Assembly: GCF_014803405.1 (NCBI RefSeq)
Contig: NZ_JACYFG010000032.1
Coordinates: forward strand, 1 to 64,000
Direction: 5' to 3'
From: Pelagicoccus enzymogenes
GTDB taxonomy: Bacteria; Verrucomicrobiota; Verrucomicrobiia; Opitutales; Opitutaceae
DNA length: 64,000 nt
Shown here: one piece after another, positions 21,904 to 63,418 of the stretch
Numbering within the stretch: position 1 is the stretch's first letter
Layout of the letters: each line of letters opens with the position of its first letter
Position numbers and translations under genes: made by a program
Notes under the pieces: generated by a model
What the model saw: only the letters and a program-made list of their open reading frames with translations
Databases searched by the model: none
What the model was told of the DNA's origin: nothing

Positions 21904-21921
21904 CTCTAAACGGGTCGGGCG

Positions 21922-22554: not shown

Positions 22555-22575
22555 TCTGAGATTGCCAAGCGAAAT

Positions 22576-22585
22576 CAAACGTTTG
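22576..22585. promoter_or_regulatory. CAAACGTTTG palindrome, candidate TetR operator
   Basis: A perfect 10-bp palindrome flanked by AAAT and TTTTAATT, 22 bp upstream of the TetR start. Place and size fit an autoregulatory TetR operator that overlaps the leftward promoter. Confidence 0.45.
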
Positions 22586-22849
22586 TTTTAATTGAGGCAA
22601 GGCGAAAGCGGGGCGGATCGTTTGCTATCTGTTAGCGGGAGGGCTGATTTCGATTTGTTTTCCGATTTCTTCGCAATTTTAGAATTCGACACGTGAATTG
22701 ATCCGTTTCCGCGATCGAGGACCGTCGAGGGACTTGGCGCAGCAGTTGCATGGGCCGGGGCCTTTTTCAGACAACTCTCAACACTCTTCTGTTTTTCTCT
22801 CAGCCAGACTATGCCAACTAGGCCTGTTTTCACACGCCGCATCATTTCG

Positions 22850-24247: not shown

Positions 24248-24302
24248 TTGGCGCACTAGTCGCTATGCCCTCCGGTCCTAAAATTTTACGCACACACCAC
24301 CT

Positions 24303-25721
24303 ATGAGACGCATTCTTCAAGTTCTTTTGCCGGTCGGCATCTTCCTGGTTTTTGGGGTTCTTATTGCCCTGATCCTCGCAAGCAAGGAGGAGCCGCAGCA
24401 GCGTCGTTTTGCTCCTCCGAGCCCTGAAGTCGTAGTACGTACGCTCGAACGGGAAGACTTCCAAATCACGCTCCATTCGCAAGGCGCGGTTCGGGCGCGG
24501 ACCCGCAGCTCCTTGATACCCGAGGTTCGCGGTCGCATCGTAAAGGTGTCGCCTAATTTCCAGGAGGGAGCGTTTTTCGAACAAGGTGAGGTTTTGCTGG
24601 AAATCGATGACCGAGATTATCTGGCGGAGCTCGCGGTTTCCAAGTCGGCCCTCGCCCAGGCCGAGCTCGAGCTGCAGCAGGAAACGGCTCGCTACGAGCA
24701 GGCTCGCCGCGATTGGGAGCGCCTGAATCCCGGGGTGAATGCTACGGAGCTTACCTTGCGCGAGCCGCAGTTGCGTCAAACGCGAGCAGCCGTGGCCTCC
24801 GCCGAGGCTCGCGTTGCGACTGCCGAGCTCAATCTTAAGCGCTCGAAAGTGACGGCTCCTTATGCCGGTCGCATTTTGACCAAGAACGTGGACGTAGGGC
24901 AGTACGTGACGACGGGCAGCCAGCTGGCGGAAATCTACGCGGTCGACTTTGCCGAGGTGCGCCTGCCGCTGACGGCTTCTCAAATCGGATTCTTGGACCT
25001 GCCAGCGATTTATCGCGGATCGAACCCTTCGATCGACAACGGTCCCAAGGTGGTGCTCAGCACGACGGTAGGAGGAGAACGTTACAGCTGGGAAGGGCGT
25101 GTGGTTCGCTCCGAAGGGGCGGTGGACGAGCGTACTCGCCAGATATTCGTGGTCGCTCAAGTCGAGAATCCGTATGGGGCCTCGGTTCCCGGTCGTCCGC
25201 CGTTAAAGGTCGGGACTTTCGTGCAAGCGGAAATTGAGGGCTCCACCTTGCGCGACGTCTTTGTGATTCCGCGCGAAGTGTATCGAGAAAACAGTTACGT
25301 GCTAGTGGTGGATGGTCAAAATAACTTGGAGCGTCGCAAAGTCACTACGGTTTGGGAGAACGATAGGAATATCGTCGTCAGAAACGGATTGAGCGATGGA
25401 GATCTGCTCTGCTTGACTGACGTTCCCTACGCATTGGAAGGGTGGGAAGTGGTCGCCAAGAACGAGGACGCCAGCAAAAACGCTCCAATGGTCGCCGGCG
25501 GGCCTGCATCTGGTAGGCAGGGAGGCGCCTCCTATCCGGATCAGGTTTTGGCAAAGCTGGGCGATAAGTTGCCAGCTGCTCTAAAGGACGAGCTCGTGGC
25601 GGTGGCCGCATCCAAGGACTTCAGCAAACTGCGTCCCTTGATGGGGAAGATTGCCTCATGGGCGGAAGCGAACGGGGAGGAGATGCCTCCTAGGCCTATG
25701 GGCGGTCAGCCACGTAGCTAG
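24303..25721 (+). CDS. RND periplasmic adaptor (membrane fusion protein), system 2
   Basis: 472 residues. One N-terminal membrane anchor (about 5-25) is followed by barrel-sandwich, coiled-coil (about 105-170) and beta-barrel domains. It extends about 70 residues beyond the homologue of system 1, with a Gly/Pro-rich linker (GGPASGRQGG) and a small helical tail. That tail contains Lys/Leu-rich helices and is not a normal adaptor part. It lies 56 bp after the channel gene and 25 bp before the permease. Confidence 0.92.
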   Translation: MRRILQVLLPVGIFLVFGVLIALILASKEEPQQRRFAPPSPEVVVRTLEREDFQITLHSQGAVRARTRSSLIPEVRGRIVKVSPNFQEGAFFEQGEVLLEIDDRDYLAELAVSKSALAQAELELQQETARYEQARRDWERLNPGVNATELTLREPQLRQTRAAVASAEARVATAELNLKRSKVTAPYAGRILTKNVDVGQYVTTGSQLAEIYAVDFAEVRLPLTASQIGFLDLPAIYRGSNPSIDNGPKVVLSTTVGGERYSWEGRVVRSEGAVDERTRQIFVVAQVENPYGASVPGRPPLKVGTFVQAEIEGSTLRDVFVIPREVYRENSYVLVVDGQNNLERRKVTTVWENDRNIVVRNGLSDGDLLCLTDVPYALEGWEVVAKNEDASKNAPMVAGGPASGRQGGASYPDQVLAKLGDKLPAALKDELVAVAASKDFSKLRPLMGKIASWAEANGEEMPPRPMGGQPRS

Positions 25722-25746
25722 TTCGAACGAAACGAAGGGGATTGGT

Positions 25747-28700
25747 ATGCATAAGTTAATTGAGTGGTTTACGAAAAACAGCGTCGCGGCGAATTTGCTG
25801 ATGGTCGCGATTGTAGCGGTCGGCATAAATTCACTGTTGAACAAGGTGATCCTTCAGGAGTTTCCTGATTTTCCCTCTCGCAACATAACGGTGACGGTTC
25901 CTTATCCAGGATCCACGCCCCGCGAGGTGGAGCAGGCAATCATCACGCGTCTCGAAGAAGAGCTCTATGACATCGAAGGCATCAAGGAGATGACGAGCCG
26001 CGCCTCCTCCAGTTCCGGTACGGTGACCCTGGAAATCGAAGAAGGTTACAGCCTTGCCGAGGCTCAGGACCGGATCAAGAACCGGGTCGACTCCATTCGT
26101 ACCTTCCCTGTCGAGGCCGAGCGTCCGCAAGTGAGCATGCCCGAGCGCCGCGAGCGGGTAATCACCATTGTGGTGTCGGGCGATCTGAGTGAAATGGAGC
26201 TAAAGCGCCTCGGCGAGCAGATTCGAGACGAGGTAACGGGGATAGAGGGGATAACCATCGCTTCTCTCAAGGCCACGCGCCCTTACGAAATATCTGTCGA
26301 AGTATCCGAAGCGACACTACGCGAGTATGGTTTGACTTTGGATAGTTTGACCTCGGCGATTCGCGCTCATTCTCTCGATTTGTCGGCAGGGCGCATCAAG
26401 TCTACCAGCGGCGACATTATGCTGCGCACTTCCCAGCAGGCCTACACTCAAGAGGAGTTCGAAGAGATTGTTGTATTCACGCGGCCTGACGGCACGCGTA
26501 TCACGGTTGGCGAGCTCGCGAAGGTGAGCGACGGCTTTGACGAGACCCCTATCAATCCTCGCTTCAACGGAAAGAGGTCGGTCGCCATCGACGTTTATCG
26601 CGTCGGGCAACAAAACATCATCGAGCTTGGAGAGAAGGTTAAGAACTATCTCGAAATCAAGAACGAGCAACTGCCAGCGGGAATCACTTTAGACTACTGG
26701 CAGGACGATTCGGAGCGCATTTCCGAACGCTTGAGCATGCTGAAAGGCAGCGCTATTTTCGGCTACGTTCTGGTTGTTTTGGTACTTTCGCTTTTTCTGC
26801 GACCGTCCTTGGCGTTTTGGGTGGCCTTGGGGATTCCGATCGCGTTCTCGGGAGCCTTCTTCCTGTTGCCGTTCATGGGCATCAGCTTGAACCTGATCAC
26901 GCTTTTCGCTTTCATCTTGGTCCTCGGCATCGTGGTGGACGACGCGATCGTGACGGGAGAGAACGTTTATCAGCGCATGCAAAGCGGCGAGGATTCGCTG
27001 ACTGCGACCATCAAGGGAACGCAGGAGGTGGCGATCCCCGTTATCTTTGGTGTGCTGACCACGATCGCCGCTTTTTACCCGCTTGTGAACATGACCGGTT
27101 TTCGAGGGAATATCTTCAAGCAGATTCCCTTCGTGGTCATTCCAGTTCTGCTTTTCTCGCTCATAGAGTCGAAGCTGATATTACCGGCTCACTTGAAGCA
27201 TTGCCGGCCCATCAACAATGCCAACACTGCCAAAAAGTCGTTCATCACGCGAATGCAACGGGGCGTAGCCAATGGCTTGGAGCGCTTTGTAGACAAGGTT
27301 TATCGTCCCTCTCTGGAGCTGTGTTTAAAATATCGATACGCGGTGTTGATGGTATTTCTCGGCGTGCTTGGTTTGTTCGTGGCTCGCTTCATGGCGGGGC
27401 ATCTTTCCTACACCACTTTCCCGAGAATTCCGCGTACTATCGTAACTACTACGGTGGTCATGCCAGTCGGGACCGCTTTCGAGTCCACCCAGCAAGTCGT
27501 CGACAAGGTTGAGGCGGCGGCCATGACCTTGCAGGCGAACCTGCGCGAGGAACACGGCACGGAGATCATTAAGAATATTTTTGCCACCGCGGGTGGACGG
27601 CCTTTTAGCAGTTGGCGATCTTCCGCGGGAGTTGCGGAAGAAGGTGAAATTGTGCTGGAGTTGGCGTCCGTGCAGGAATCCGGAGTCGAGATTGGAAGCC
27701 GGGAGATTTCCATGGGATTGCGACGCTTGGTCGGGCCCGTTCCGGAAGCGGAGTCCTTGGACATTGCCTTTGCCCGTGGCGGCGGAGACGCTGTCAACGT
27801 GCAGCTCGAAGGTCCTCGAATCGAGGATTTGGTCGAGGCTTCGAAGGAGCTGCAGCGCAAGCTAGCTACTTACGAGGGCCTCTACGATATCGAGGATTCG
27901 TTCCAGCAAGCGACAGAGGAGCTAGAGTTGGAGTTGAAGCCTCAGGCGGTGCATCTGGGGGTCACCTCCCGCCAATTGGCTTCGCAAGTGCGACAAGCCT
28001 TCTATGGAGCCGAGGCGCAACGAATCCAGCGTGGTCGAGACGACATCCGGGTTATGGTTCGCTATCCGGAGGCCCAGCGCAAGAGCATCGCCTCCTTGCA
28101 CAACATGAAGATCCGCACGCAGGATGGATCGGAAGTTCCGTTCGAAGAAGTGGCGCGAGTAGTACCGGGCAAGAGCTTGCCTTCGATCCAGCGCTTTGAT
28201 CGCAACCGCATCATTCGAGTGACGGCAGCGGGCGACGAGAACCAAACGGATGAAGAGGGCATCCAGACTGACCTTGAAACCAATTACCTGCCTGAGCTTG
28301 TGAGCAAGTACTCTGGGATGTCCTTCACCCTGCAAGGTAACGCGGCGGAGTCTCGCGACAACAATCGCGAGTTTATGAACGGCGTGTATTTGGTGCTAGT
28401 GGTTATCTACGTGCTGTTGGCAATTCCATTCAAGAGCTACATCCAGCCGTTCATCGTGATGACTGCGATTCCCTTCGGAGTGGTCGGCGCGGTTATGGGG
28501 CACGACCTGATGGGATTCGTTTACGAGACCGTGCTGCAGCGTAGCACGAATCCGGTGATAAATGTAACCATGATGTCGATACTCGGTATGTTGGCATTGT
28601 CCGGCGTCGTGGTGAACGATAGTCTTGTGATGATGGACTATATCAATCAGCGGCGCAAGGAAGGGTATAGCCTTCCGGAAGCGGTTCGCATGGCGGGCCC

Positions 28701-28977
28701 GAAACGTTTTCGACCGATCTTGCTAACGTCGCTCACTACCTTCGTAGGGCTTTTGCCACTCATGTTCGAAAGCGCCCTGAGCGCCCAGTTCCTGATACCG
28801 ATGGCAGTTTCGCTCGGGTGGGGTATCCTTTTCGCCACCTTGATCACCCTTTACTTCGTGCCGATCACCAATCTAGTCGTGCATGATATCGGAAACTTCC
28901 TCAAGTGGGTTTACGGCAAGGAACGGGAGGCGGAGTCCACTCCAGACGCTACGGTTGCCGCTCGGGCTGCGGAGTAG
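25747..28977 (+). CDS. RND efflux pump permease, system 2
   Basis: I start at the ATG at 25747 (MHKLIEWFTKNSVAAN), which matches the start of RND permeases; the open frame upstream overlaps the adaptor gene. 1076 residues with two halves of six membrane segments and the proton-relay pair in GIVVDDAIVTGENVY. It lacks the Gly-rich insertion seen in system 1. It is followed by a good intrinsic terminator at 29012-29038. The substrate is unknown. Confidence 0.93.
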   Translation: MHKLIEWFTKNSVAANLLMVAIVAVGINSLLNKVILQEFPDFPSRNITVTVPYPGSTPREVEQAIITRLEEELYDIEGIKEMTSRASSSSGTVTLEIEEGYSLAEAQDRIKNRVDSIRTFPVEAERPQVSMPERRERVITIVVSGDLSEMELKRLGEQIRDEVTGIEGITIASLKATRPYEISVEVSEATLREYGLTLDSLTSAIRAHSLDLSAGRIKSTSGDIMLRTSQQAYTQEEFEEIVVFTRPDGTRITVGELAKVSDGFDETPINPRFNGKRSVAIDVYRVGQQNIIELGEKVKNYLEIKNEQLPAGITLDYWQDDSERISERLSMLKGSAIFGYVLVVLVLSLFLRPSLAFWVALGIPIAFSGAFFLLPFMGISLNLITLFAFILVLGIVVDDAIVTGENVYQRMQSGEDSLTATIKGTQEVAIPVIFGVLTTIAAFYPLVNMTGFRGNIFKQIPFVVIPVLLFSLIESKLILPAHLKHCRPINNANTAKKSFITRMQRGVANGLERFVDKVYRPSLELCLKYRYAVLMVFLGVLGLFVARFMAGHLSYTTFPRIPRTIVTTTVVMPVGTAFESTQQVVDKVEAAAMTLQANLREEHGTEIIKNIFATAGGRPFSSWRSSAGVAEEGEIVLELASVQESGVEIGSREISMGLRRLVGPVPEAESLDIAFARGGGDAVNVQLEGPRIEDLVEASKELQRKLATYEGLYDIEDSFQQATEELELELKPQAVHLGVTSRQLASQVRQAFYGAEAQRIQRGRDDIRVMVRYPEAQRKSIASLHNMKIRTQDGSEVPFEEVARVVPGKSLPSIQRFDRNRIIRVTAAGDENQTDEEGIQTDLETNYLPELVSKYSGMSFTLQGNAAESRDNNREFMNGVYLVLVVIYVLLAIPFKSYIQPFIVMTAIPFGVVGAVMGHDLMGFVYETVLQRSTNPVINVTMMSILGMLALSGVVVNDSLVMMDYINQRRKEGYSLPEAVRMAGPKRFRPILLTSLTTFVGLLPLMFESALSAQFLIPMAVSLGWGILFATLITLYFVPITNLVVHDIGNFLKWVYGKEREAESTPDATVAARAAE

Positions 28978-30407: not shown

Positions 30408-31778
30408 ATGTGTGTTAGAATTCTACCCAAAGCGGTTTTGTGCGCGCTCATCCTTCTTTCCAACAGTGTTTCCGCTCAAGAATCCGAAGACGACGAGGTC
30501 TTCGAGCTGAGTCCCTTCCAGGTTTCGAGCGACCACGGCTACCGGGCGCGGCGAACGACCAAGACCGTACCTGAAGTCACGGTCAATGACATAGGAGCGA
30601 CTATCGATGGCGTTAACGGACCGTTTGACCCCAGCCTGAAGCGAGCGCATGGCGTTACCGTAGCTTTCGCCTACGGATTCTACGACGACCAGGAGTTGGT
30701 TAGGCGAGAAACCTTGAATCGGTACATCGACGAGGTGCGGAAGGTGCTGGCGACCCACGAAAGCTTATACTTCGAACCGAAGGAGTTACTGGTGCCCGAG
30801 GGAGATCGCAAGAGAGGGCGCAACAGTCGTCGATCGGCCTATACCTCCTATGCGCATTTCGACGTGTCCTTTGAATTTGGAGACGGGGCGTCGCCGTTCG
30901 AAAAAGTGTTGGAGATTCGAAAGATCGTCAGCGCGATCGGTATCCAAAATGATGTGACGAAGCTGTTCTATGGAGGAGCTAGCCTCGTTGCCCAGAAGTA
31001 TCGAGATACATTGCTTTTCGGCGTTGGAGAGCGGTACGAGGGGATTTCTCGCGTAGACGAGCTGGGCAGCTCGGTTCCTTACGTCACGGACGCCATAGGC
31101 CGCCAATTGAGAATGGCTGACCCATCGGTGGCGGTCACCTTGGTAAAGCCAGCTGATGCTGTCCGTATCGAATTTTCCTTGGAAGTAGAGAATCTAAGCG
31201 AGGTGGAACGGGCTCGCTCCATCGAGGAGGCTCTCAAGACGGCTCAAGGAGCGGTCGAGTCCGTTCAAGGTCTTGAATTCGAATCCGGAACTGTGCGGCT
31301 CTCTAAGGGGGAGGGCGTTCAAGGGCCGTCGACGCGTTTGAGTTCCTACTACGCTCAAGCCCTTTTCAGCGTGCGTATTCCCATAGGGGAAGGCTCTTTT
31401 GACCTGGAGCGTGTGCGTGAGGTTCGTCAGCTATTGTTCGAGCAAGATTGGGCGGATGCGGAATTGCGATTTGGAGCGGCGGCTTTAGTGGTGAACAACG
31501 TGGATCGGTATCGCAGCGAATTGCTGGCTGCGGTGTTCGCGGACCTCAAGGCCATGGACGCAGGCTTGGGAGACTTGTTCGAGGTCGTGCCAAGCATCGA
31601 AAACGTCCGCATTCAATTGCGGCAAGCGTCGCCAACCGAGGTGGAGCTCTGGATTCCCTACAGCTATAAGGTCGTTTCCGTGCGGGAGCGGGAGCATCAG
31701 AAGGACCTGTTCGAGCTGGAGCTGGAAAAGGCCCGAGCGGCGACGGCCGCCGCCCTGCGGGAAACCTCCAAGGGGTAA
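30408..31778 (+). CDS. Secreted repeat protein with a TonB-box-like 'ELSPFQV' N-terminus; function unknown
   Basis: I start at the ATG at 30408 (456 residues), which gives a clean signal peptide (1-23, ending SVSA). The mature N-terminus, DDEVFELSPFQVSSDHGYRA (28-47), is nearly the same as in the three TonB-dependent receptors of this window. No plug or barrel follows. Instead there is a tandem repeat of about 170 residues. Block A (about 82-131 and 252-302) is followed by block B (about 145-204 and 314-377), with the shared pattern GGASLV / GAAALV, and perhaps a third partial A at the C-terminus, which ends in a charged coiled coil (425-456). I recognise no family; a faint likeness to SIMPL/DUF541 is possible. 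It is convergent with the phosphatase gene, 3 bp away. Confidence 0.8.
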   Translation: MCVRILPKAVLCALILLSNSVSAQESEDDEVFELSPFQVSSDHGYRARRTTKTVPEVTVNDIGATIDGVNGPFDPSLKRAHGVTVAFAYGFYDDQELVRRETLNRYIDEVRKVLATHESLYFEPKELLVPEGDRKRGRNSRRSAYTSYAHFDVSFEFGDGASPFEKVLEIRKIVSAIGIQNDVTKLFYGGASLVAQKYRDTLLFGVGERYEGISRVDELGSSVPYVTDAIGRQLRMADPSVAVTLVKPADAVRIEFSLEVENLSEVERARSIEEALKTAQGAVESVQGLEFESGTVRLSKGEGVQGPSTRLSSYYAQALFSVRIPIGEGSFDLERVREVRQLLFEQDWADAELRFGAAALVVNNVDRYRSELLAAVFADLKAMDAGLGDLFEVVPSIENVRIQLRQASPTEVELWIPYSYKVVSVREREHQKDLFELELEKARAATAAALRETSKG

Positions 31779-36066: not shown

Positions 36067-39000
36067 CTACCAGCTAAAGGTGCTTGTCAAGCGCCAGGTG
36101 GTTGGCACGGAGAGGCGATAGCGGTTGCTGTCGAGGGCGTTGCCGTTTGAGTCTACCGCATCCGGATTCAGCCCGGTGACTCGGAATCCGCCCTCATTGG
36201 AAGTGTCGACCAAGCGCGAGGCGTTGAGCTGGATTCTCCAATCGACGCTATCGTTCATGATTTTGGTCCTGTATCCAAATTTCACTCCAGCGGTGAGGAC
36301 GGAGTCGCCGAATAGCGGATTGTCCGGATCACCTATGCTTGCGTTTACGACGTTGTTGGGATCGTTGAAGCCGGGCACGTCGCTGAATTCTGGCACCAAA
36401 TCGGTGACGGGAATTTCCTTTCGGTTCGACCCGATGACTTTTCCATCCTCGAAGATGACGTTCGCTCCCACGGAGAAGCCTTTCAAGCGTCCTTCGCGAA
36501 AAGAGTAGTCTGCGACGAATTTTCCGGTGTACTCGGATACTCCCAAATTGGGACGACCTTCTCTCGCGAGGTCTGACGCGTAGCGACCGACCACGCTATC
36601 AACGAACCAGCGAGCGATGGTTTCATCAGCGAGTTCGTTTGTTAAGTTCCCGTTGCCGTCGCGCTCGAAGATGTCCGGATTGTTGGTTCCATCGTTGTTA
36701 AGCCCTTCCGCGAAGAATGGACCGTAGAAGGCCATGCGGTCGGACAACCAGTCTTCGACGCGAGGTGACACGTTAGTGACTTGGTTTTCGAGACGACTGA
36801 CGGAAAAAAGCAAGCGCAGGTTCTTGGTCGGATTGTAGGTGCCGGTAAACTCGAAGCCTTCGGAAGTTGAGTCCTGTGTGTCGTTTACGTTGTCGGGACG
36901 AACGTATTGGTTTGTGGTGACCTGGCCGTTGACGTCGTAGGTCCACCACTCGGAGAGGCGGCCAGCATCTTCAAGTGCGTTGTAGATGCGGTTTTCGATA
37001 CCGGGTATCGCCTGGGAAGGAAGCCAATTGGGCCCGTTCGCGTTGACCTGCGAAGTCTCGTAGAAGGAGAGACGGAGATCCATCTTGCCTTCCAGCAGGT
37101 TCGCTCCGATTCCGAACTCCTCGGTTTCGCCGCCCTGCGGAGGGATGACGCGACCGAAGTTGTCGGAACGCGGGTTGGAAACTTCGAAGTTTTCGGACTG
37201 GTTGGCGAAGATGCGGAGCTTGTCCGGTATGACGTGCACGATTACGCTTTTGGAAACTGAAGCGACGTCGATGAGCGGGTTATTGGCGTCGGGGCGCGCA
37301 TTGTAGTAGGAACGTTCGATATCGTTAGCGAAGAGTTCGCGCTCGCCCGTAGATTCGTCCGGGTCTATCCGACCGACAGATTGGTTGAAGGCGTCGCCTG
37401 ACTGACGGGTGCGCAGGTACGGGTAAACCGAATCCTCTCTCGCTCCTAAGAGCGTGACGACGCGACCGTTTAGGAAAAAGCTCTGAATGGAGCCGCTCAG
37501 GCCCTTGTTTATTTGCTCTCTCCAGTTTCCGCGGCCAATAGAGTTGCGGCGAAGTTCGACCGGAACGGGGGAGGTCGCTATTACATTTGGCGTCGATGTC
37601 ATATAGTTGTAGTAGAGGTCTTCCTCCTCGGTCAGGATATTGGAAGGTACTGCATTTATATTGAGCGAAGTGTCGCCCGGCTGAACGGCATCGCCGACGT
37701 ACCAAATATTATAGATGCGGCGCCCTCCATCGTTGAAGGCATCTTCCTGGTCTGCCCGAACACCCGAAGCCATCACATCTGGAATATAGTTATGGGCGCG
37801 CGTTTCCCAGCGGTATTCGAAATTTTCGGACCAGCGGTAGTTGGCTACTCCTGTGATACGGTGTTTACCAAGCCAAGACAGACGGTCGAACTTCTCTGCG
37901 AAATCGAAGTCGTAGTTCGCCTGAAGTTGGTAGGATTCGCTCGCTTGTTCGCGGTAGAGACCAAGTGGGCGACCGTAGATGAAGGGACGCATGAAATTTG
38001 GATTGGGAACGCGGTCACCGTTTTCATCAAGGTAGAGCATATAGCGGTTGTTATCCAACTGAATTGCTCGGGTTTGAGATATGATGGGAAAGTTGTTTTC
38101 GATCCTGTAGTCTTCTTTCAGACCGGAGAACGAAACGTAGAAGTTGTCGTTTATCTTTTGGTCGATATTGAATGACAGCTTGCTGTTCTCTTCGTCTCGG
38201 TAGTTGCCTGGCAGGCTTCCGAGGTCGAATTCATGATAGGGAAAGATGCCGGGATCGGTAACCTGCGGATCTAGGAAGCCGTTGGTTCGGTTCTCCAGTG
38301 GATGTGAAGTGCGGATGAGTGTCCGGCGATCAGATGCGGGGCCGCGGCTGCCAGTGGGAGTGCGCGTGCCCGAGAGGTTGATGCCGCCGTGCAGCTCCTG
38401 GTCTGGAAAGGCTCCGTCATGGTATATGATGAGAGCATTGTCTTTGCCGTCCAAGTCGTCGCCCAGACGGACTTGTCCGGCTGGCCTGCCGTGGCCTACG
38501 CCATCGATGTCGTAGGTTGGATCTATAATGCCCGAGACTGCTCTTACGGAGGCTGCGTTCGTGTTAGCGGGATCGGTAGGGTCCCACCAAAAACCGGCAT
38601 CGAGTAGGGCCTCTTCCAAGGCATCTCCGCTCAGCCCGTTAGCGACCTGATCGGAGTAAAAGTCGTTATACAGAGGAAGCCAGCCGCTAACGTTGTCGTG
38701 CACTAGGCGGTAGGTTGGCTTGCGGCTGAAACGATCAATCTCTTCGTATGCCACGTTGATTGTCGTATTCTTGCTCGGTTTGTATTGAAATGTCGAGTAC
38801 ACGCGATTGTCACGTTCCCGTGCGTGCTGTACGTCGTATTTCTGGTCGCCGAATTTGGCGGCGATTCTGAATCCCAGTTTGTCTTCGATCAAGGAACGGT
38901 TGAAATCGAAGCCGGTGCGCCAGGTACCAAAGTTGTCTAGGACGATGTCGAGCTTGTTGATCTCTTTATTGGTGTGGGCTTTCTTGGCAGTGTAGTTGAT

Positions 39001-39543
39001 TAAGCCTGCAGGGGTGCCGAGGCCAAAGAGAATAGAATTGGGGCCTCTAAGAAACTCGGCTCGCTCGACGTTGTAGCGATCACCGCCGATGAATACTTCG
39101 TGGAAGCCTTGAGTTTTTGCCGCCCGCCCGAGTCCGCGCACGCGTACGGAGGCTTCGGAAGCAGTGGGGTCGCCAAAGTCACCACCCGTGTATTGACCGA
39201 AAGCAGCCACAGTTTCAGAGGTCTGTTCCGAAAGTTCATTTGTCTCGGCGCCTGCTACCAGCTCGAGGGCCGATGTTAGGTCAGTTGCTCCGAGGTCGTC
39301 CATAAACGCATCGGTCAAAACCGTGACAGAGGCTGATACGTTTTTAAGCTCAGTATTCAACCGGCTTCCGGCTGTAGTCGATGCGCCGCGGTATCCTTCG
39401 TCTGCGGATCCGTCCACCTGGAAGGGCGAGAGAGTGAAGACATTTTCATCCTCTTCGCCGTCTTCTTGAGCGAAGAGGAATGCGGCGGGTGTGGCCGTTG
39501 CTAGCGACAGGGCTAGGAATGTATTTTTGTAGGTAGGTTTCAT
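36067..39543 (-). CDS. TonB-dependent receptor 1 (Opitutae type)
   Basis: 1158 residues, an outer-membrane active transporter for large glycans or chelates. A signal peptide (1-25) is followed by the TonB-box-like segment DENVFTLSPFQV and a plug domain (about 55-200; AEFLRGPNSILFGLGTPAGLINYTTKK). A 22-strand barrel ends in an aromatic residue (STFSW). It is larger than the usual 700-900 residues, with long extracellular loops. It lies between the rhaM operon and the GH78 rhamnosidase, so uptake of rhamnose-containing oligosaccharides is a fair guess. It has no SusD partner. Confidence 0.92.
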   Translation of the reverse strand: MKPTYKNTFLALSLATATPAAFLFAQEDGEEDENVFTLSPFQVDGSADEGYRGASTTAGSRLNTELKNVSASVTVLTDAFMDDLGATDLTSALELVAGAETNELSEQTSETVAAFGQYTGGDFGDPTASEASVRVRGLGRAAKTQGFHEVFIGGDRYNVERAEFLRGPNSILFGLGTPAGLINYTAKKAHTNKEINKLDIVLDNFGTWRTGFDFNRSLIEDKLGFRIAAKFGDQKYDVQHARERDNRVYSTFQYKPSKNTTINVAYEEIDRFSRKPTYRLVHDNVSGWLPLYNDFYSDQVANGLSGDALEEALLDAGFWWDPTDPANTNAASVRAVSGIIDPTYDIDGVGHGRPAGQVRLGDDLDGKDNALIIYHDGAFPDQELHGGINLSGTRTPTGSRGPASDRRTLIRTSHPLENRTNGFLDPQVTDPGIFPYHEFDLGSLPGNYRDEENSKLSFNIDQKINDNFYVSFSGLKEDYRIENNFPIISQTRAIQLDNNRYMLYLDENGDRVPNPNFMRPFIYGRPLGLYREQASESYQLQANYDFDFAEKFDRLSWLGKHRITGVANYRWSENFEYRWETRAHNYIPDVMASGVRADQEDAFNDGGRRIYNIWYVGDAVQPGDTSLNINAVPSNILTEEEDLYYNYMTSTPNVIATSPVPVELRRNSIGRGNWREQINKGLSGSIQSFFLNGRVVTLLGAREDSVYPYLRTRQSGDAFNQSVGRIDPDESTGERELFANDIERSYYNARPDANNPLIDVASVSKSVIVHVIPDKLRIFANQSENFEVSNPRSDNFGRVIPPQGGETEEFGIGANLLEGKMDLRLSFYETSQVNANGPNWLPSQAIPGIENRIYNALEDAGRLSEWWTYDVNGQVTTNQYVRPDNVNDTQDSTSEGFEFTGTYNPTKNLRLLFSVSRLENQVTNVSPRVEDWLSDRMAFYGPFFAEGLNNDGTNNPDIFERDGNGNLTNELADETIARWFVDSVVGRYASDLAREGRPNLGVSEYTGKFVADYSFREGRLKGFSVGANVIFEDGKVIGSNRKEIPVTDLVPEFSDVPGFNDPNNVVNASIGDPDNPLFGDSVLTAGVKFGYRTKIMNDSVDWRIQLNASRLVDTSNEGGFRVTGLNPDAVDSNGNALDSNRYRLSVPTTWRLTSTFSW

Positions 39544-54812: not shown

Positions 54813-57800
54813 CTAGAAGCTGAAGGAATTGGTCAAGCGGAAGGTCGTTGGTTGATTTAGACCGAAGACCGGGCTGCCATCCGCGTTGACGCGGATGATG
54901 CGCAGGTCGTCGCCCTGCTTGAACACGTTATCCACATTCAACTGGACGCGCCAGTCGATCTTGTCGCCGTGCAACTTACCCTTGTAGTTGACCATGAGAC
55001 CGCCCGTTACGTGAGAATCGCCCTCATAAGGATTGTTCACGTCGCGGCGGACTGGTTGGAATTCTTCTCCATCGATCTGGCCGTTCCCATTGGTGTCTGG
55101 GTTCGGGAAGTTGAATGGCAGTTCGTCCAGTTCGACGGGAATCGAGACGTAGCCCAAGGCCTTTCCGCTTTCCCAACGGAGGTTGGTGCCAAAGGAGAAG
55201 CCCTTCATGAATCCGTCGCGGAAGCTGTAGTTCGCTGTGATACGAGCGTTGTACTCGGAGATACCGTGGCTAGCTACACCTTGCACGGCGAGCGCCTCGA
55301 GAATATCGTCACCAACGGTTTGGTAGAAGCGAGCGGTCAAGAGGTTCGAGTCCGGAGCGCGGCCACCAAGGGTGTCGACGAGGAAGGCGTTGTCTGGAAG
55401 AGGGCCATCGGCGTCATCGGCTGTGTCCCAAACTGGGAGATCTCCGTTGTCAGCAGCGATTGATCCTGGTCGCGCGAAGTACTGAGTCGCGTCATTGTGG
55501 CCATTAGAGTGGTACCCTTGGCTGATGAATTGATTCCAGTATTCGCCACGCAGAGCTACGTATTCGAGCGTTTGAGAGTGAACGTTCGAGATCGCATTTT
55601 CGAGACGGGAAACGCTGCCGCGCAGACGCAGGTTTTTGGTCGGGTTCCAAGTACCGCTCAACTCCCAGCCTTTGGATACCGAGTCGAAGGTGGTGTTGGA
55701 ATCCTCGGGACGGTCCCATCTCTGAGCGTCGTCGTCGTAGGTCCACTGAGGCACTCCGTTGTCGTTAATGATCTGCTCTCCGGTCTCTTCATCAATATCT
55801 GGAATGCGGGAGAAACCGCTCTCAACAATGAGATTGCCGTTTGCGTCGATGCCGGCCACACGCTCCCAGTCTTCGATCGTGTACGGAGTATTTTCACCGT
55901 TCTCGATGAAACGTTGGTCAAGAGCTTTGAGGGTGTCGTGTACGAAGCGTTCGAAGCTGACCATGCGGGACCAGACAAGACCGTTGCCTTGACGGGCGTT
56001 GACCTGTGCCGACTCGAAGACGTTGAACTTCAGGTCGAGCTTGTTCTCGAAGAGCGTCATACCGAAGCCGTACTCGGTCGTTTCACCGCCTTGGGAAGGA
56101 ATGCGTCGACCGAAGCCGTCAAAGTTAACGGTGGACAGGTCGAAGTTCTCCGAATCGTTGTAGAAGAAGCGCAACCAGGGCGTGGCGTGGAAAACGACAC
56201 TGCCGGTCATAAGTTCCTCCTTTTGCACGAGGTCCGAGGTGTTTACGGAAGTATCCCAGTCGGATCGCTCATCACCGTCGCTAATGCGGTCCCATGCAGG
56301 AGTTGGGTCTGGGAAGCGATCGTAAATCACGGTCTCAACTTCGTCGGAGCGCCAGCCCACAGTGGTTACGAGCCTAGTATCAAACGGCAGGTCGAGGTAA
56401 CTTTGCAGGGACGTACCGTAGCCAGTCTGGTCCAGGCCGTTGAAAGCGAGCGTGCCACCGATGATGCCCGGAGCGATCTCGAGACCCTCTTCATTCACCG
56501 TCCAGCGACCGCGGTCGTCGTTGCCGGTCGTGTCGTAGTAGTAGTGACCAATACGGTTGTTGAGGTGAGGACGGGTGCTGTCTGGAGCTCCAGTGAAGTT
56601 CAAAGTAGTATCTCCGACCTGCACGGGATCGCCCACGTAGAAGATTGGCCAGAACCAACGGTTAGAGGAGTGCTGGTCATTTGGACCGGTTCTCAAAATA
56701 TCTTCGTTGTAGGTGGCAACATCGCTCGCACGGTAAGTGAGCGCGTCGTCTCTAGAAGCGGATCCGAAAAGAGTGATACGATGCAAGCCGAGGAAACCGA
56801 GTCGATCCGAGCGGTCTCTGAAGTCGAGATCGTAGTTCGCTTGGAACAGTGCCGCCTCGGACTGGAAGTCCTCGTAGCCGCTGATGTGGCGACCATGGAA
56901 GAAGGGGCGAAGGAAGTTCGGGTTCTGTTCACGATTGGCAACCTGCTCAAGGAAGAGCGCGTTGTTGGCAGCGATCTCTTCAAGCTCACCCTCGGCTGGG
57001 AGACGGGTCTTGTTGCCTGCTCTCCGAATAGTAAGCGAACCACCGTTGTTGATGTGATCGATGATCGTCTGAGCCTGGAAAACGGCTTCATCGATAGTCG
57101 GGTCGACACTCGAACCGCCAGGGAATGCAATCACATCGCCTTCGGGACTAAGAAGGTTTTTAACCTGCGGGGCTCCGAAGAAGAGACCAGGGTCCTGAAT
57201 CGCGCCTGGGAGGTAGCGGTTTACGTCGATGGAGATCGCTTGAGACTGAGCTAGTGGACCGAAGTTTTGGTTACGCTCGTAGTCTTCTTTCAGATACGAA
57301 AGAGAAAGGTACAGATCCTCGTTTACCTTTTGCTCCCAGTTGAAGCCAAACTTCTGGCTTTTTACCTCTTGGAAGTTTCCGGGCAGGGTGCTGAGCTCTT
57401 GATCGTAGATCGGGAAGATGCTCTCGTCGAGTACCTGAGGGTCGGCGTAGGCGTTACCGTCACGGTTGTCGAACGCATGCGAACTGCGAGCAAAACGTAC
57501 GCGAGAGCGCGGGTACGCGTTACGTCCGTTTCCGTTTTGCGGCTGACCGCCGTTGACGCGAATGTTACCGTAAAGGGTTGTCAGGCCATCTCCAGCAGGG
57601 CTGTAAGGGATGGACCAGTCACCACCGGAGTAAGTTGCATCACCGGAGTAGTAACCGGTGACTGCTCGCTCACGACCGTCCATGTGCCGAATCCATTGAG
57701 CTTCGAACTCTAGTGGATTACCGTCCGCGTCCACCCTGACTCTCTCGTCGAAGACGTAGTCGCCTGTAGGGACAGGGCGTCCGTTGGAAGTACCTGGCCA

Positions 57801-58787
57801 GGAAGCGTCCCAGATGAAGTTGCGCTCGCGGAACTCGTCAAGGCTCATGTCACCATAACGATCCGGGTCTTCCGCCTGTAGCTCGGCCAGGCGAGTGCCT
57901 GCGTTGTTCCAAGCTTGTAGCCAATCGCTGACATTGTCCTGCGGCAGGCGGTAGTTCGGACGGCGGCCAATCGCAGAAGTGCGTTCGATGTAGGCGTCGA
58001 TCGTGGTCTTCTCGAACGGCTTGTATCGGAATGTCAAAAACGCTTTGCGATCGAGATTCTCAGCGGTCTTTGCCATGTACTTCGTGTCTGAAACGACACC
58101 CGCGAAACGGGCCGCTAGCTTGTCCTCGATCAGAACGCGGCTGAAGTCGACCTGCACGCGGCGAGAACCGAAATTGTCGAGACGGAAGTTGATATTATTG
58201 ATATCACGGCTCAGGTGAGCCTTCTTGGTCGTATAGTTCACGACGCCAGCGGGGCGTCCGAGACCGAAGAGAAGTGAGTTCGGACCTCTCAGAAACTCCG
58301 TACGCTGCATATTGTAGCGGTCCATTGGCCCTCTCACCTTCAGGTAATTGGCCGAATTCGTCGCACGGCCAAGACCGCGAATACGCACGGAGCTTTCACG
58401 GGAATTCGGGTCGGAGAAGTCGCCGCCGATGTAACCACCTCCTCCAGGATTGGAGATGCTTTGCGTATCGTTTGTAAGGTCGGTTTCGACACCAGCGAGC
58501 ATCGACAAGGCACCGTCGAGATCGGTAGCTCCTAGGTCGTCGAGAAAGGCGTCTGTCAGAACCTCGACCGAAGCAGCGACGTCCTTGAGTTGCGTGTTCA
58601 GTCGACTTCCTGCGGTGGTCGACTGGGCGCGGTAACCGTCGTCGCCGTCGGAGGAGACGGTGAAAGGCGAGAGTTCGAAGATTTCTTCATCGTCTGTCTC
58701 TCCTGAGTTCTGGGCCTGAAGGGAGGCCCAGGGGGTCGTTGCTGCCAGCGTTATCGCCAACCAGCCACTTTTCGGGATCTTATTCAT
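54813..58787 (-). CDS. TonB-dependent receptor 2 (tandem paralogue, EF-hand loop)
   Basis: 1324 residues, an outer-membrane active transporter. A signal peptide (1-26, ending SLQAQ) is followed by the TonB-box-like DEEIFELSPFTV, a plug domain (about 60-210; RTEFLRGPNSLLFGLGRPAG) and a large barrel ending LTNSFSF. A perfect EF-hand loop, DTNGNGQIDGEE (1231-1242), lies in the last extracellular region. It is about 70% alike (by eye) to receptor 3 and clearly a tandem duplicate. No SusD protein or TonB/ExbBD genes are nearby. It has its own terminator and a leader shared with receptor 3. Confidence 0.93.
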   Translation of the reverse strand: MNKIPKSGWLAITLAATTPWASLQAQNSGETDDEEIFELSPFTVSSDGDDGYRAQSTTAGSRLNTQLKDVAASVEVLTDAFLDDLGATDLDGALSMLAGVETDLTNDTQSISNPGGGGYIGGDFSDPNSRESSVRIRGLGRATNSANYLKVRGPMDRYNMQRTEFLRGPNSLLFGLGRPAGVVNYTTKKAHLSRDINNINFRLDNFGSRRVQVDFSRVLIEDKLAARFAGVVSDTKYMAKTAENLDRKAFLTFRYKPFEKTTIDAYIERTSAIGRRPNYRLPQDNVSDWLQAWNNAGTRLAELQAEDPDRYGDMSLDEFRERNFIWDASWPGTSNGRPVPTGDYVFDERVRVDADGNPLEFEAQWIRHMDGRERAVTGYYSGDATYSGGDWSIPYSPAGDGLTTLYGNIRVNGGQPQNGNGRNAYPRSRVRFARSSHAFDNRDGNAYADPQVLDESIFPIYDQELSTLPGNFQEVKSQKFGFNWEQKVNEDLYLSLSYLKEDYERNQNFGPLAQSQAISIDVNRYLPGAIQDPGLFFGAPQVKNLLSPEGDVIAFPGGSSVDPTIDEAVFQAQTIIDHINNGGSLTIRRAGNKTRLPAEGELEEIAANNALFLEQVANREQNPNFLRPFFHGRHISGYEDFQSEAALFQANYDLDFRDRSDRLGFLGLHRITLFGSASRDDALTYRASDVATYNEDILRTGPNDQHSSNRWFWPIFYVGDPVQVGDTTLNFTGAPDSTRPHLNNRIGHYYYDTTGNDDRGRWTVNEEGLEIAPGIIGGTLAFNGLDQTGYGTSLQSYLDLPFDTRLVTTVGWRSDEVETVIYDRFPDPTPAWDRISDGDERSDWDTSVNTSDLVQKEELMTGSVVFHATPWLRFFYNDSENFDLSTVNFDGFGRRIPSQGGETTEYGFGMTLFENKLDLKFNVFESAQVNARQGNGLVWSRMVSFERFVHDTLKALDQRFIENGENTPYTIEDWERVAGIDANGNLIVESGFSRIPDIDEETGEQIINDNGVPQWTYDDDAQRWDRPEDSNTTFDSVSKGWELSGTWNPTKNLRLRGSVSRLENAISNVHSQTLEYVALRGEYWNQFISQGYHSNGHNDATQYFARPGSIAADNGDLPVWDTADDADGPLPDNAFLVDTLGGRAPDSNLLTARFYQTVGDDILEALAVQGVASHGISEYNARITANYSFRDGFMKGFSFGTNLRWESGKALGYVSIPVELDELPFNFPNPDTNGNGQIDGEEFQPVRRDVNNPYEGDSHVTGGLMVNYKGKLHGDKIDWRVQLNVDNVFKQGDDLRIIRVNADGSPVFGLNQPTTFRLTNSFSF

Positions 58788-59461: not shown

Positions 59462-62400
59462 CTAGAAGCGGAAAGAGTTGGTGAGCTTGAAGGTGGTCGG
59501 ACGATTGAGGGCGAACACGGGGCTTCCATCCGAGTTGAAGCGGATGATGCGCAGGTCGTCGCCTTGCTTGAAGACGTTGTCCACGTTGAGCTGGATGCGC
59601 CAATCGATCTTGTCGCCGTGCAGCTTGCCCTTGTAGTTGACCATCAAGCCGCCGGTGACGTGCGAGTCTCCTTCGATGGGGTTCTCCACGTCGCGTCGTA
59701 CGGCGAGGAACTCGGTCTCGTCGATCAGGCCGTCTCCGTTAACGTCGGTATTGGGGAAGTTGAAAGGGAGTTCTTCGTCCGCAACTTCCACGACGTCGTA
59801 TCCAAGGCCTTTACCGCTCTCCCAGCGGAGGTTGGTGCCAAAGGAGAAGCCCTTCATGAAACCGTCGCGGAAGCTGTAGTTGGCCACCACGCGGGCATTG
59901 TATTCGGAGATGCCGTGGCTGGAGATACCTTGGATGGCGAGGGCGTTCAGGATGTCGTCGCCAACGGTGTTCCAGAAGCGAGCGGTCAGTAGGCGATCCG
60001 GCTGAGGTATCGCTCCCATCGTCTCGACTCGGTAGTTGTTGTAGGGCAGCTCGCCGTCGACCTCGGTATCCCATACGGGTAGTTCGTCGGCTGCTGGCGA
60101 ATCCGGTTCGGCCCAATATACGGTGGCGTCGTTGTGGCCGTTGGTGTGGTAGCCAGCGTCAAAGAACTGGTTCCAGTACTCGCCGCGTTTCGCCACGTAT
60201 TCCAAGGTTTCCTCGTGCACGTTGGAAATGGCGTTTTCCAAGCGGGAGACGCTACCGCGGATACGCAGGTTGCGAGTGGGGTTCCAAGTGCCGCTGAGTT
60301 CCCATCCTTTGGATACGGAGTCTTGGGTGGTGTTTACGTTGGTCTCTGGTCTCCAGCTTATTTCCTCGTCTTCGAAGGTCCACTGAGGGTTGCCGTTGAA
60401 GTCGATGATTTGGTTGCCGTCGTCGTCGAGCTCAGGAACGCGATAGCCGGGGCTGTCGGTCAGCAGGTTGCCTTCTGCATCGATCCCCGTGACCCGGGTC
60501 CAGTCCTCGATGTTATAGGGAGTGGGGTCGCCGTTGGTGAACCGTCCATCGAGAGTTTGCAGCATGCGCCGCACCGTGTCCTCGAAGTTCTTCATGCGAG
60601 CCCACACGAGGGAACCGGCACGCTGGTTGACCTGGGCGGTTTCGTAGATGTTGAACTTGAGGTCGAGCTTGTTCTCGAAGAGGGTCAGTCCGACGCCGTA
60701 TTCGGTGGTCTCACCGCCTTGGGAGTCGATGTTGCGACCGAAGCCATCGGTAGCGGGCGAGGTGAGGTCGAAGTTTTCCGACTCGTTGTAGAAGAAGCGG
60801 AGCCATGGCGTGGCGTGGAAAACGACGCTACCGGTGGTGAGGGCCTTGGTCTGTTCGAGCGTGGTAATAGGATTTGCAGTATCCCAGTCCGAGCGTTCGT
60901 CGCCATCGCTGATCTTATCCCAAGCGGGCGTCTCGTCGGGCAACCGTTCGTACATAATGCTGGCGACAGTGTCCTCGCGCCAGCCGATGGTGGATACGAT
61001 GCGGTTGTTCCAGAAGAAACTCTGCAGGGACGCCCCGTACCCCTCTTGTTCCAATCCGTCGAAGGAGAGGGTGCGGCCGATGATGCCTTCCTCGATTTCG
61101 AGGCCTTCCTCGTTGATGAGCCACTCGCCGCGGTCGGAGTTTTCGTTAGTGTAGTAGTAGTGCCCGATGCGGTTGTCGAGGTGTGGGCGAGTGTTTTCCG
61201 GCAGTCCGGTGATGTTCAGGCTGGTATCGCCGAGCGCGACGGGGTCGCCAATGTAGAAGATCGGCCAGAACCAACGATTAGCCGAGTGCTGGTCGTTCTC
61301 GCCTGTCCTAGCGAGGTCCTCGTTGTAGGTGGCCACGTCGCTGGCTCTCCATCCAAGAGTCGAGTCTTTGGAAACCGAACCGAAGCCAGTGAGGCGGTGC
61401 AAGCCGAGGAAGCCCAAGCGGTCGGAGCGGTCGCGGAAGTCGAAGTCGTAGTTGGCTTGGATGAGGGCCGATTCCGATTCGTACTGCTCGTGTCCGCTGA
61501 TGTGGCGTCCGTGGAAGAAGGGACGGAGGAAGTTCGGGTTCGGTTCCCGGTTGGCCACTTGCTCGAGGAAGAGCGTGTTGTTGGCCGCGATTTCCTGCAG
61601 CTCGGCTTGCGGGATGATTGCTGTGTTTCCTCCCTGTTTGCGTCGCTCGAGCGAGCCGCCGGCGTTAATATGGTCGACGATCATTTGAGCCTGCGTGACA
61701 GCTTGATCGAGCGTGGGGCGGATGGTGCCGCCTCCTGGAAGGTCCGTCCGCGTGGCAATCTCGCCGTTGCTGTCTAAGGTTACCAGATCCTTCACGTAGG
61801 GCGCTCCGAAGAACAGTCCAGGGTTTTGGATCGCGCCTGGGAGGTAGCGGTTGACGTCGATGGAAATCGCTTGGGTTTGTGCGAGAGGTCCAAAGTTTTG
61901 GTGACGCTCGTAGTCTTCTTTCAAATACGAAGCGGAGAGGTAGAAGTCGTCGTTTACCTTTTGCTCGAAGTTGAAGCCAAGCTTCTTGCTCTTGATGTCG
62001 CGGTAGTTTCCGGGAAGTGTGCCGAGCTCTTGGTCCATGAAGGGAAAGATTCCTTCGTCCAGAACCTGTGGGTCCGCGAACGCTTGACCGTCGCGATTGT
62101 CGAACGGGTGTGAACTGCGAGCAAAGCGAAGTCGTGTGCGTGGTTGCACAGCGCCGCCACGTCCGTTGGTCGGCTGTCGACCGGTAGTGGTGATGTTGCC
62201 GTAGAGGGTGGTGTACCCTTCGCCCCCTGGGCTGTAAGGGATGGACCAGTCACCGCCGGAGTAGGTGGCGTCACCGGAGTAGTAGCCGGTGAGGGCGCGT
62301 TCTCTGCCGTCCATGTGACGGATCCATTGGCCCTCGAATTCGAGGGGATTGCCGTCGGCGTCCGTTTTTAGGCGCTCGTCGAAGACGTAATCTCCGGTGG

Positions 62401-63418
62401 GGCGCGGACGTCCTTGGCTCTCATATGGCCAGGAAGCGTCGTGCAGGAAGTTGCGTTCGCGGAACTCCTCGAGACTCATGTCGCCGTAGGTGTCGGGATC
62501 AGAACTCTTGAGAGCAGCGAGTTGCTCGCCTGCGTTGTTCCAGCCTTCTAGCCAATCGCTTACGTTGTCCTGAGGCACGCGGTAGTTCGGTTTGCGAGCG
62601 TCGAGCGTGGTGTTTTCGATATAGGCATCGAGAACGGTGTTCTTGAAAGGTTTGTATTTGAATGTTAAATACGCCTTGCGGTCTAGATTTCTGGCGGTCT
62701 CCGCCATGAACCGCTGATCGTTGATTACGCCGGCGAAACGAGCGGCAAGCTTGTCTTCGATGAGGGTGCGGCTGAAGTCGACTTGCAGACGGCGCGTGCC
62801 GAAGTTGTCTAGCACGAAGTCGATCTTGTTGATGTCGCGCCGAAGATGAGCTTTCTTGGTGGTGTAGTTCACTACGCCAGCAGGCCGACCGAGCCCGAAG
62901 AGCAAGGAGTTAGGACCACGCAGGAACTCGGTACGCTCCATGTTGTAGCGGTCCACGGGGCCACGTACCTTGAGGTAGTTAGCGGACTTGGTCGCTCGGC
63001 CGAGGCCGCGAACGCGAACGGAGTTTTCCCTCGCATTAGGATCGTTGAAATCGCCGCCGATGTATCCACCGCCGCCGGGCGATGAGATGTTCTGAGTGTC
63101 GTTGGTGAGGTCGGTATCGACGCCGGCGACCATCGAGAGTGCCCCATCGAGATCGGTGGCGCCGAGATCGTCCATGAAGGCGTCGGTAAGAACGGTGACG
63201 GACGCCGCGACGTCCTTCAGCTGAGTGTTCAGTCGACTGCCAGCGGTGGTCGAGTTTGCGCGGTAGCCATCGTCGCCCTCTGAGGATACGGTAAAAGGCG
63301 ACAGTTCGAAGATTTCCTCTTCGTCCGCTGCCTCCGAATTTTGGGCAGTGAGGTGTGCCCAGGGGGTAGTTGCTGCGAGCGTGACTGCTAACCAGCTGCT
63401 TTTCGGGATCTTTTTCAT
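59462..63418 (-). CDS. TonB-dependent receptor 3 (tandem paralogue, EF-hand loop)
   Basis: 1318 residues. Same architecture as receptor 2: signal peptide, DEEEIFELSPFTV, plug (RTEFLRGPNSLLFGLGRPAG), long barrel ending LTNSFRF. The EF-hand loop is DVNGDGLIDETE (1225-1236), different in sequence from that of receptor 2 but with every calcium-ligand position kept. The plug and C-terminus are nearly identical to receptor 2; the central loops differ more, which suggests different ligands. The own terminator and a long upstream region make it an independent transcription unit. Confidence 0.93.
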   Translation of the reverse strand: MKKIPKSSWLAVTLAATTPWAHLTAQNSEAADEEEIFELSPFTVSSEGDDGYRANSTTAGSRLNTQLKDVAASVTVLTDAFMDDLGATDLDGALSMVAGVDTDLTNDTQNISSPGGGGYIGGDFNDPNARENSVRVRGLGRATKSANYLKVRGPVDRYNMERTEFLRGPNSLLFGLGRPAGVVNYTTKKAHLRRDINKIDFVLDNFGTRRLQVDFSRTLIEDKLAARFAGVINDQRFMAETARNLDRKAYLTFKYKPFKNTVLDAYIENTTLDARKPNYRVPQDNVSDWLEGWNNAGEQLAALKSSDPDTYGDMSLEEFRERNFLHDASWPYESQGRPRPTGDYVFDERLKTDADGNPLEFEGQWIRHMDGRERALTGYYSGDATYSGGDWSIPYSPGGEGYTTLYGNITTTGRQPTNGRGGAVQPRTRLRFARSSHPFDNRDGQAFADPQVLDEGIFPFMDQELGTLPGNYRDIKSKKLGFNFEQKVNDDFYLSASYLKEDYERHQNFGPLAQTQAISIDVNRYLPGAIQNPGLFFGAPYVKDLVTLDSNGEIATRTDLPGGGTIRPTLDQAVTQAQMIVDHINAGGSLERRKQGGNTAIIPQAELQEIAANNTLFLEQVANREPNPNFLRPFFHGRHISGHEQYESESALIQANYDFDFRDRSDRLGFLGLHRLTGFGSVSKDSTLGWRASDVATYNEDLARTGENDQHSANRWFWPIFYIGDPVALGDTSLNITGLPENTRPHLDNRIGHYYYTNENSDRGEWLINEEGLEIEEGIIGRTLSFDGLEQEGYGASLQSFFWNNRIVSTIGWREDTVASIMYERLPDETPAWDKISDGDERSDWDTANPITTLEQTKALTTGSVVFHATPWLRFFYNESENFDLTSPATDGFGRNIDSQGGETTEYGVGLTLFENKLDLKFNIYETAQVNQRAGSLVWARMKNFEDTVRRMLQTLDGRFTNGDPTPYNIEDWTRVTGIDAEGNLLTDSPGYRVPELDDDGNQIIDFNGNPQWTFEDEEISWRPETNVNTTQDSVSKGWELSGTWNPTRNLRIRGSVSRLENAISNVHEETLEYVAKRGEYWNQFFDAGYHTNGHNDATVYWAEPDSPAADELPVWDTEVDGELPYNNYRVETMGAIPQPDRLLTARFWNTVGDDILNALAIQGISSHGISEYNARVVANYSFRDGFMKGFSFGTNLRWESGKGLGYDVVEVADEELPFNFPNTDVNGDGLIDETEFLAVRRDVENPIEGDSHVTGGLMVNYKGKLHGDKIDWRIQLNVDNVFKQGDDLRIIRFNSDGSPVFALNRPTTFKLTNSFRF

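Follow-up and report, generated by a model that had tools for sequence, protein, structure and literature searches.

Why would a protein with neither a plug nor a barrel begin like a TonB-dependent receptor? TonB is usually regarded as a motor for outer-membrane receptors, and the receptor segment through which it would be reached is found here on a protein of another kind, P0001. The gene lies at 30408..31778 on the forward strand (ATG at 30408, stop codon at 31776-31778) of a 64,000-nucleotide stretch of Pelagicoccus enzymogenes DNA, hereafter the window, and encodes 456 amino acids. On the basis of its translation and its relatives, we describe P0001 as a tagged, SIMPL-like, putatively periplasmic protein.

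A receptor-type segment on P0001

Residues 1-23 of P0001 (30408..30476, forward strand) are a predicted signal peptide, MCVRILPK-AVLCALILLSNS-VSA, which was recognized by eye, has a plausible cleavage site between VSA and the following Q, and contains a helix at residues 5-22 in the structural model. The tag, residues 28-47 (DDEVFELSPFQVSSDHGYRA; 30489..30548, forward strand), stands behind the signal peptide and has the form of a receptor N-terminus, EVFELSPFQV..GYRA, with a core box at V31-V39 (30498-30524, forward strand). The preliminary description had reported that P0001 shares an ELSPFxV segment with three receptors of the window, and this was confirmed. Receptor 1 (36067..39543; Pfam Plug E = 1.9e-7), which is of the source type of the tag, reads NVFTLSPFQV, and receptors 2 (54813..58787; Plug E = 1.1e-7) and 3 (59462..63418; Plug E = 1e-9) both read EIFELSPFTV; all three are encoded on the reverse strand.

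A search of the 6.2-Mb genome with the P0001 protein returned P0001 itself, the sole full-length match, and 19 more matches, all of which fell inside P0001 residues 3-91 (best E = 5e-8) and sat in open frames of 659-1343 amino acids. Because some of these matches took in the signal peptide, we built a signal-free profile, the receptor-only HMM, from 43 receptor N-termini of the same genome, each extending from 10 residues before the box leucine to 48 after it. This profile was run on 1388 ORFs from the window and 27 chosen loci, with E-values given for a nominal 50,000 sequences, and found P0001 at E = 1.3e-8. Its matches were receptors and tagged proteins exclusively; two unexpected matches (in loci L044 and L045) were further tagged non-receptors. 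The receptor-like tag on P0001 is beyond chance.

No plug or barrel family was found in P0001 by Pfam, as the preliminary description had also held, and the model of its 456 residues consists of alpha/beta lobes only. Residues 18-79, tag included, had AlphaFold pLDDT values below 50 and were modeled as disordered. P0001 therefore has what is looked for in a TonB box, since its receptor-type box lies close to the mature N-terminus in a segment that is predicted to be flexible, and burial of the motif in the repeat fold is unsupported by the model.

The genome has at least 43 receptor genes. These are the strong matches, of which the window's three were assigned by Pfam and the other 40, all large carriers, by length and barrel-like C-termini. 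LSPF was present in 44 of 44 strong-match receptor rows, one row being a duplicate. At least 5 more receptors (L069, L070, and L112-L114) have the variant boxes LAPF, LAAF, and LEAF, and weak N-terminal matches at C54, C49, C35:187807, and C39 were kept outside the counts. In L112-L114, an extra N-terminal domain recognized by eye is followed by the box and then the plug. A box behind an N-terminal extension and before the plug has the usual position of a TonB box and, because the box here sits after the added domain and before the plug, we infer that LSPFxV serves receptors of this lineage as their TonB box. The classical TonB box comprises five residues; in these receptors the SPF part, which lies past those five, is conserved as well. 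Adjoining receptor 1 is an alpha-L-rhamnosidase gene (Pfam; 40708-43470, reverse strand), an arrangement that suggests a rhamnose-glycan uptake locus.

The body of P0001 and its relatives

The body of P0001 had been described as A-B-A-B repeats, which proved to be wrong; AlphaFold and the family profile both give A-A-B. The tag is followed by a first lobe A (residues 82-194, beta-alpha-beta-beta-alpha-beta; 30651..30989), a disordered linker, a second lobe A (residues 251-361; 31158..31490) whose fold matches ferredoxin-like halves, a lobe B (residues 365-424; 31500..31679), and a C-terminal helix, all encoded on the forward strand. Judging from the alignment to structure 7c50 and from hhalign, lobe B would complete a SIMPL-like domain. 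Copy 1 lacks lobe B and covers only positions 40-170 of the family profile, whereas copy 2 covers positions 5-237. Both alpha/beta units were modeled mostly at pLDDT 57-90, save for a loop near residue 300, and the second unit modeled alone reached 87.3.

Family searches of the body returned nothing over threshold in Pfam and nothing at E = 0.01 in NCBIfam. The SIMPL family (PF04402) had no Pfam match in P0001 and a single sub-threshold match, located elsewhere, in the same genome. When the second unit was compared with solved structures, the only whole-domain match among the matches listed was the SIMPL-like 7c50, whose alignment took in 172 of 192 residues at an rmsd of 7.0; its Z of 10.0 was tied with those of ferredoxin-like half-domain matches. 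The hhalign comparison of the family profile with 19 Verrucomicrobiota SIMPL ORFs was collinear over 222 columns at E = 2.6e-4 with a low probability (19); these ORFs were picked by position, and lengths of 155, 404, and 553 amino acids suggest wrong or fused frames among them. The same comparison gave E = 1.1e-3 when only tagged members of the P0001 family were used; with an unrelated control, the corresponding values were 0.44 and 0.27. A sequence search of solved structures with the family alignment gave chance-level matches only (best E = 0.12). We call the body of P0001 SIMPL-like, a candidate member of a family whose Pfam profile it does not match. P0001 would have in common with SIMPL/YggE proteins the two-lobed fold of its second unit, but it differs from them in falling below Pfam detection, in lacking lobe B in copy 1, and in having a TonB-box tag.

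Searches with the P0001-domain profile found the domain in 38 of the 252 genomes that represent the family; at the level of the order, 273 genomes were sampled and 21 had it. A search for related loci with P0001 alone as the query found none, and the family alignment as the query found 7. One named relative, from Pelagicoccus mobilis (Puniceicoccales, Pelagicoccaceae), matched the receptor-only HMM at E = 2.3e-23 and retains the start of the plug beside the box ('GYRSKNTLAGTRLKTDLKDVGAAINVLDASFFQDSGA'), as does L268, a relative from another family of the order. In L047, all receptor sequence but the box is gone, and DEVIVLSPFEI stands shortly before the domain. Since the plug start is kept in some members and the box alone in others, the tag is best read as the N-terminus of a receptor that was transplanted and, in some members, pared back until only the box was left. 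The most reduced tags (L047, L063, L059, L048, and L102) gave non-significant E-values of 0.015-4.9 with the receptor-only HMM and were assigned by position and motif.

A tree of the SIMPL-like family had 33 rows, 13 of them tagged and 20 untagged. All tagged rows lay on one side of one branch, and the single origin of the tag that this implies had only modest support, 68/79 (66% of bootstrap trees). The tree omitted fragments and partial domain matches (L064, L075, L076, L078, and L079) as well as duplicates (L009 and L010). Two rows, L065 and L077, were counted as untagged although contig ends cut their N-termini, so that 18 of the 20 untagged rows were readable at the N-terminus. Because untagged SIMPL-like proteins exist, including one in a congener (G007, L043), the tag is dispensable for the function of the fold. 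An artefact of a single gene or assembly was ruled out by the 13 tagged rows together with L268 and L270, which come from other families.

Other tagged proteins and the conservation of the box

The P. enzymogenes genome gave 46 strong matches to an N-terminal profile. Of these, 43 were receptor-like and 3 were non-receptors, namely P0001, a 659-residue VWA protein, and a 2034-residue alpha-2-macroglobulin (A2M). This profile had included P0001 and six other tagged proteins, whose E-values are biased; the unbiased test of the tag is the receptor-only HMM, which matched the VWA protein at E = 1.7e-15 and the A2M at E = 5.2e-12. The tag of the A2M is internal, at ORF residues 1194-1245, between a bait-region domain (1020-1112) and an A2M domain (1275-1365), so that a tag can be preceded by more than 1100 residues.

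Further carriers were identified across related genomes from among the matches listed. They included a VIT-VWA protein (G015) that contains a Plug fragment over the Pfam cut-off (E = 6.7e-7), a VIT-TPR-DUF2135 protein (G178), and VWA proteins of the YfbK type, one of which (L101) has an anti-sigma-like N-terminus detected below the NCBIfam cut-off and another (L196) a start that resembles it by eye. A DUF4139/4140-like protein (G001) was recognized just below the Pfam cut-offs, with its tag at E = 0.0014 only. A Plug fragment inside an A2M also fell below the Pfam cut-off (E = 8.8e-4), and the A2M of G013 (L100) was missed entirely by the receptor-only HMM and assigned by position and motif. 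By sequence, then, the same receptor-derived segment is found on six unrelated architectures: SIMPL-like, VWA, anti-sigma/YfbK, VIT, A2M, and DUF4139-like. Matches to the receptor-only HMM and the Plug fragments in carriers indicate that the tag came from a receptor N-terminus by transplantation and is not a product of convergence.

The interpretation in the preliminary description is supported in part. Its core, the transfer of a TonB-box-like segment from receptors to a protein of another kind, is well supported; the tag did not prove to be exclusive to P0001. A general signal for export or processing had been named as the reading that would speak against this proposal. Its export part did not hold, the segment being internal in A2M, VIT, YfbK, and DUF4139-like proteins and only 3 of 46 strong carriers in this genome being non-receptors; export as the sole meaning of the tag was ruled out by the same internal positions.

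Several observations were made beside these carriers. L197 (6524-9319) and L196 (7067-10417) encode YfbK-type VWA proteins in which the tag is internal and a plug-like piece is also present; L197 has an anti-sigma-like N-terminus at a sub-cut-off NCBIfam score. Each gene is followed by a long ORF with a secreted-protein-like start, the one in L196 being without a Pfam match. A possible carrier in the P. enzymogenes genome, L071 (G000:C5:608000-611000), is a secreted protein without a Pfam match that has a weak box-like segment, EELLVIELSGFEVFS, after its signal peptide (E = 0.4).

The box appears to have been retained on non-receptors. Among 49 genomes with any match to the VWA protein at 1e-20, 11 close orthologues were counted at E < 1e-100. 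LSPF occurred in all 11 and LSPFx[VI] in 10, and the receptor block T-LAGxR, scored with a loose pattern, in 6. More distantly, L211 (27% identity) had no box, and nine more VWA loci gave no match to the receptor-only HMM. For A2M, 51 search rows, some of them receptor N-termini matched via the tag alone, were reduced to 30 loci, and L233, L240, L247, L248, and L249 were excluded because the anchor pattern failed. At the internal site of the remaining 25 sequences, in segments picked by eye, exact LSPF was present in 11, a loose box ([VITFYLM]x[LM]xxFx[VILT]) in 22, and either of these in 23. L244 had no box, and a doubtful IASFSL in L252 was kept outside the box count.

The boxes also differ between genomes in a consistent way, which we refer to as a dialect. 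The residue two before the box leucine was aromatic in 44 of 44 receptor rows of P. enzymogenes (one a duplicate) and in the 10 of 22 matches tabulated for G005, and was aliphatic in all 20 receptors sampled from the 33 matches of G010 and all 10 sampled from the 38 of G013. All 21 non-receptor boxes tabulated, which came from ten genomes, had the dialect of the receptors encoded beside them in the same genome; six of the ten genomes were represented by 1-2 receptors. Likewise, boxes of different families agreed in dialect in 12 of 12 genomes with two or more. A second A2M of G178 has isoleucine, an aliphatic residue, at this position. Aliphatic exceptions outside the table were the receptors L070 of P. 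enzymogenes (VIDLAPF) and L107 of G005 (VIELDPL), and the doubtful carrier L071 (VIELSGF) was off the dialect of its genome. Common descent can partly account for this agreement, which is still what would be expected if the boxes meet the same partner.

Tagged genes were found side by side in several genomes. In G178, three tagged genes lie in a row on one strand and encode VIT-TPR-DUF2135, SIMPL-like, and A2M proteins, the last being split by a stop in the assembly. A tagged SIMPL-like gene adjoins a tagged VWA gene in G096, and a tagged DUF4139-like gene is followed by a tagged VWA gene in G001. In G015, a tagged VWA gene adjoins the tagged VIT-VWA gene, and the pair is beside a response regulator and a histidine kinase (both by eye) and another VWA gene (Pfam). 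In G077, a tagged VWA gene adjoins an A2M gene without a box, one of two A2Ms in that genome being box-less. The tagged VWA genes of L263 and L265 have as neighbors what appear to be response regulator and histidine kinase genes, together with a further VWA gene, which suggests a regulated envelope module.

No tagged gene adjoins P0001, no neighbor of P0001 in the window recurred at any of the five loci of relatives with which it was compared, and no adjoining tolQRA or pal genes were recognized by eye. Its neighbors are RND pump genes (Pfam) and, by reading, an esterase-like gene and a PAS/phosphatase-like gene. The window contains a divergent pair of RND efflux operons (16045-22578, reverse strand, and 22811-28977, forward strand; RND by Pfam), both of which include an outer-membrane factor by reading, and a TetR-like regulator gene (21922-22578, by reading) is flanked by them.

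Probable docking on TonB-type domains and its alternatives

We consider it probable that P0001, a SIMPL-like protein exported to the periplasm, has in its disordered N-terminus a functional TonB box, acquired from a receptor and docking on a TonB-type C-terminal domain. Such a domain would bind the box by strand addition, and P0001 would be docked on, and possibly pulled by, TonB or a TonB_C protein, as TolB is by TolA. The A2M, VIT, VWA, anti-sigma/YfbK, and DUF4139-like proteins would form one set with P0001 by virtue of the same receptor-derived segment; the distribution of the tag indicates that P0001 is no isolated curiosity but belongs to a group of proteins marked in this way. The sequences suggest that tagged non-receptors would bind TonB, and these proteins may in turn be coupled to the proton motive force and share a role in envelope surveillance or maintenance.

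The segment could instead be a neutral relic, with abundant receptor N-termini fused to other genes by recombination and serving just as signal peptide and linker without a role for TonB. We regard this as unlikely. Receptor genes are indeed very abundant, fusions are recurrent, and untagged relatives exist; however, no signal peptide is needed where the segment is internal, LSPF has outlasted its flanks in the VWA orthologues (11/11 versus 6/11), and the dialect mostly tracks the receptors of the same genome. It is also improbable that envelope proteins of this order, receptors and others alike, use the segment as a general signal for sorting, retention, or processing, recognized by a protease or chaperone, for example, and not by TonB. 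Its occurrence on unrelated envelope proteins and the conservation of SPF beyond the classical box are compatible with such a signal, but the scarcity of non-receptors among the strong carriers is not, nor is a location at the TonB-box position of receptors even behind an added N-terminal domain, nor one so far from the N-terminus in A2M.

Alternatively, tagged proteins could be decoys or competitors that occupy TonB and thereby dampen or prioritize receptor transport, with no work done on them. The sole point in support is that P0001 is predicted to be soluble with one exposed box. A box inside an A2M, between the bait-region and A2M domains, would go unexplained, as would the clustering of several tagged genes, and we find this very hard to credit. 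Docking of P0001 on a TonB-type domain is the explanation that we compare with known systems below.

The closest working precedent, by analogy, would be TolB of the Tol-Pal system. TolB is soluble and periplasmic and uses its N-terminal region to bind TolA, a relative of TonB; PMC12204202 proposes that it originated from an outer-membrane protein after loss of the barrel. P0001 differs in that the six-bladed beta-propeller is replaced by an unrelated alpha/beta body, and in that its tag, which occurs on six architectures, shows homology to local TonB-dependent receptors. TonB boxes on non-receptors are described for group B colicins and klebicin C in the relevant passages of PMC11658791. Those proteins are imported toxins, whereas the carriers found here are envelope proteins of the cell itself. 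PorE of Bacteroidetes, as presented in PMC12204202, is an envelope lipoprotein and not a receptor, although its carboxypeptidase-like domain resembles the one found in receptors; the proposal is that a TolA/TonB-like protein transduces force to it. PorE belongs to another phylum and has another domain and partner system, and the passages on it in PMC12204202 do not mention a box of this type.

No published account of such tagged non-receptors was found among the matches listed in a search of titles and abstracts, preprints and subscription papers being excluded. The presence of the tag on unrelated periplasmic proteins suggests that receptors are not the only targets of the motor or its relatives. 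If TonB or TonB_C paralogues engage A2M, VWA/VIT proteins, and sensors, the proton motive force could act on envelope defence or maintenance throughout the lineage, and the Tol-Pal precedent makes such recruitment mechanically possible. In Bacteroidetes, annotations of A2M, VWA (YfbK), and M56 proteins often include segments of carboxypeptidase-regulatory and plug-like type; if confirmed, these modules would be a parallel in another phylum.

A broader reading is tentative, and we hold it with considerable doubt: Puniceicoccales and related Opitutia may have a TonB-coupled periplasmic system in which carriers are bound, and possibly driven, via their boxes. Its bound partners would be the A2M, VIT, VWA, DUF4139-like, and SIMPL-like proteins together with membrane anti-sigma/YfbK sensors. 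TonB_C domains would have spread too, onto tandem-repeat, TPR, ankyrin, and sigma-factor proteins, and box and TonB_C together would be a general code for peptide recognition in the envelope.

The P. enzymogenes genome had 33 TonB_C matches (loci L081-L095; C6, C8, C35, C37, and others). The 27 over the cut-off offer many possible partners for the tagged proteins. Unusual TonB_C proteins included a secreted one in which the domain occurs four times in tandem, another with two, and fusions with TPR, ankyrin, and sigma factor, the partners being named by eye. In the region of one such locus (L095, G000:C2:174941-175162), a sigma-factor-like part and a hydrophobic stretch, both recognized by eye, are followed by a C-terminal TonB_C domain.
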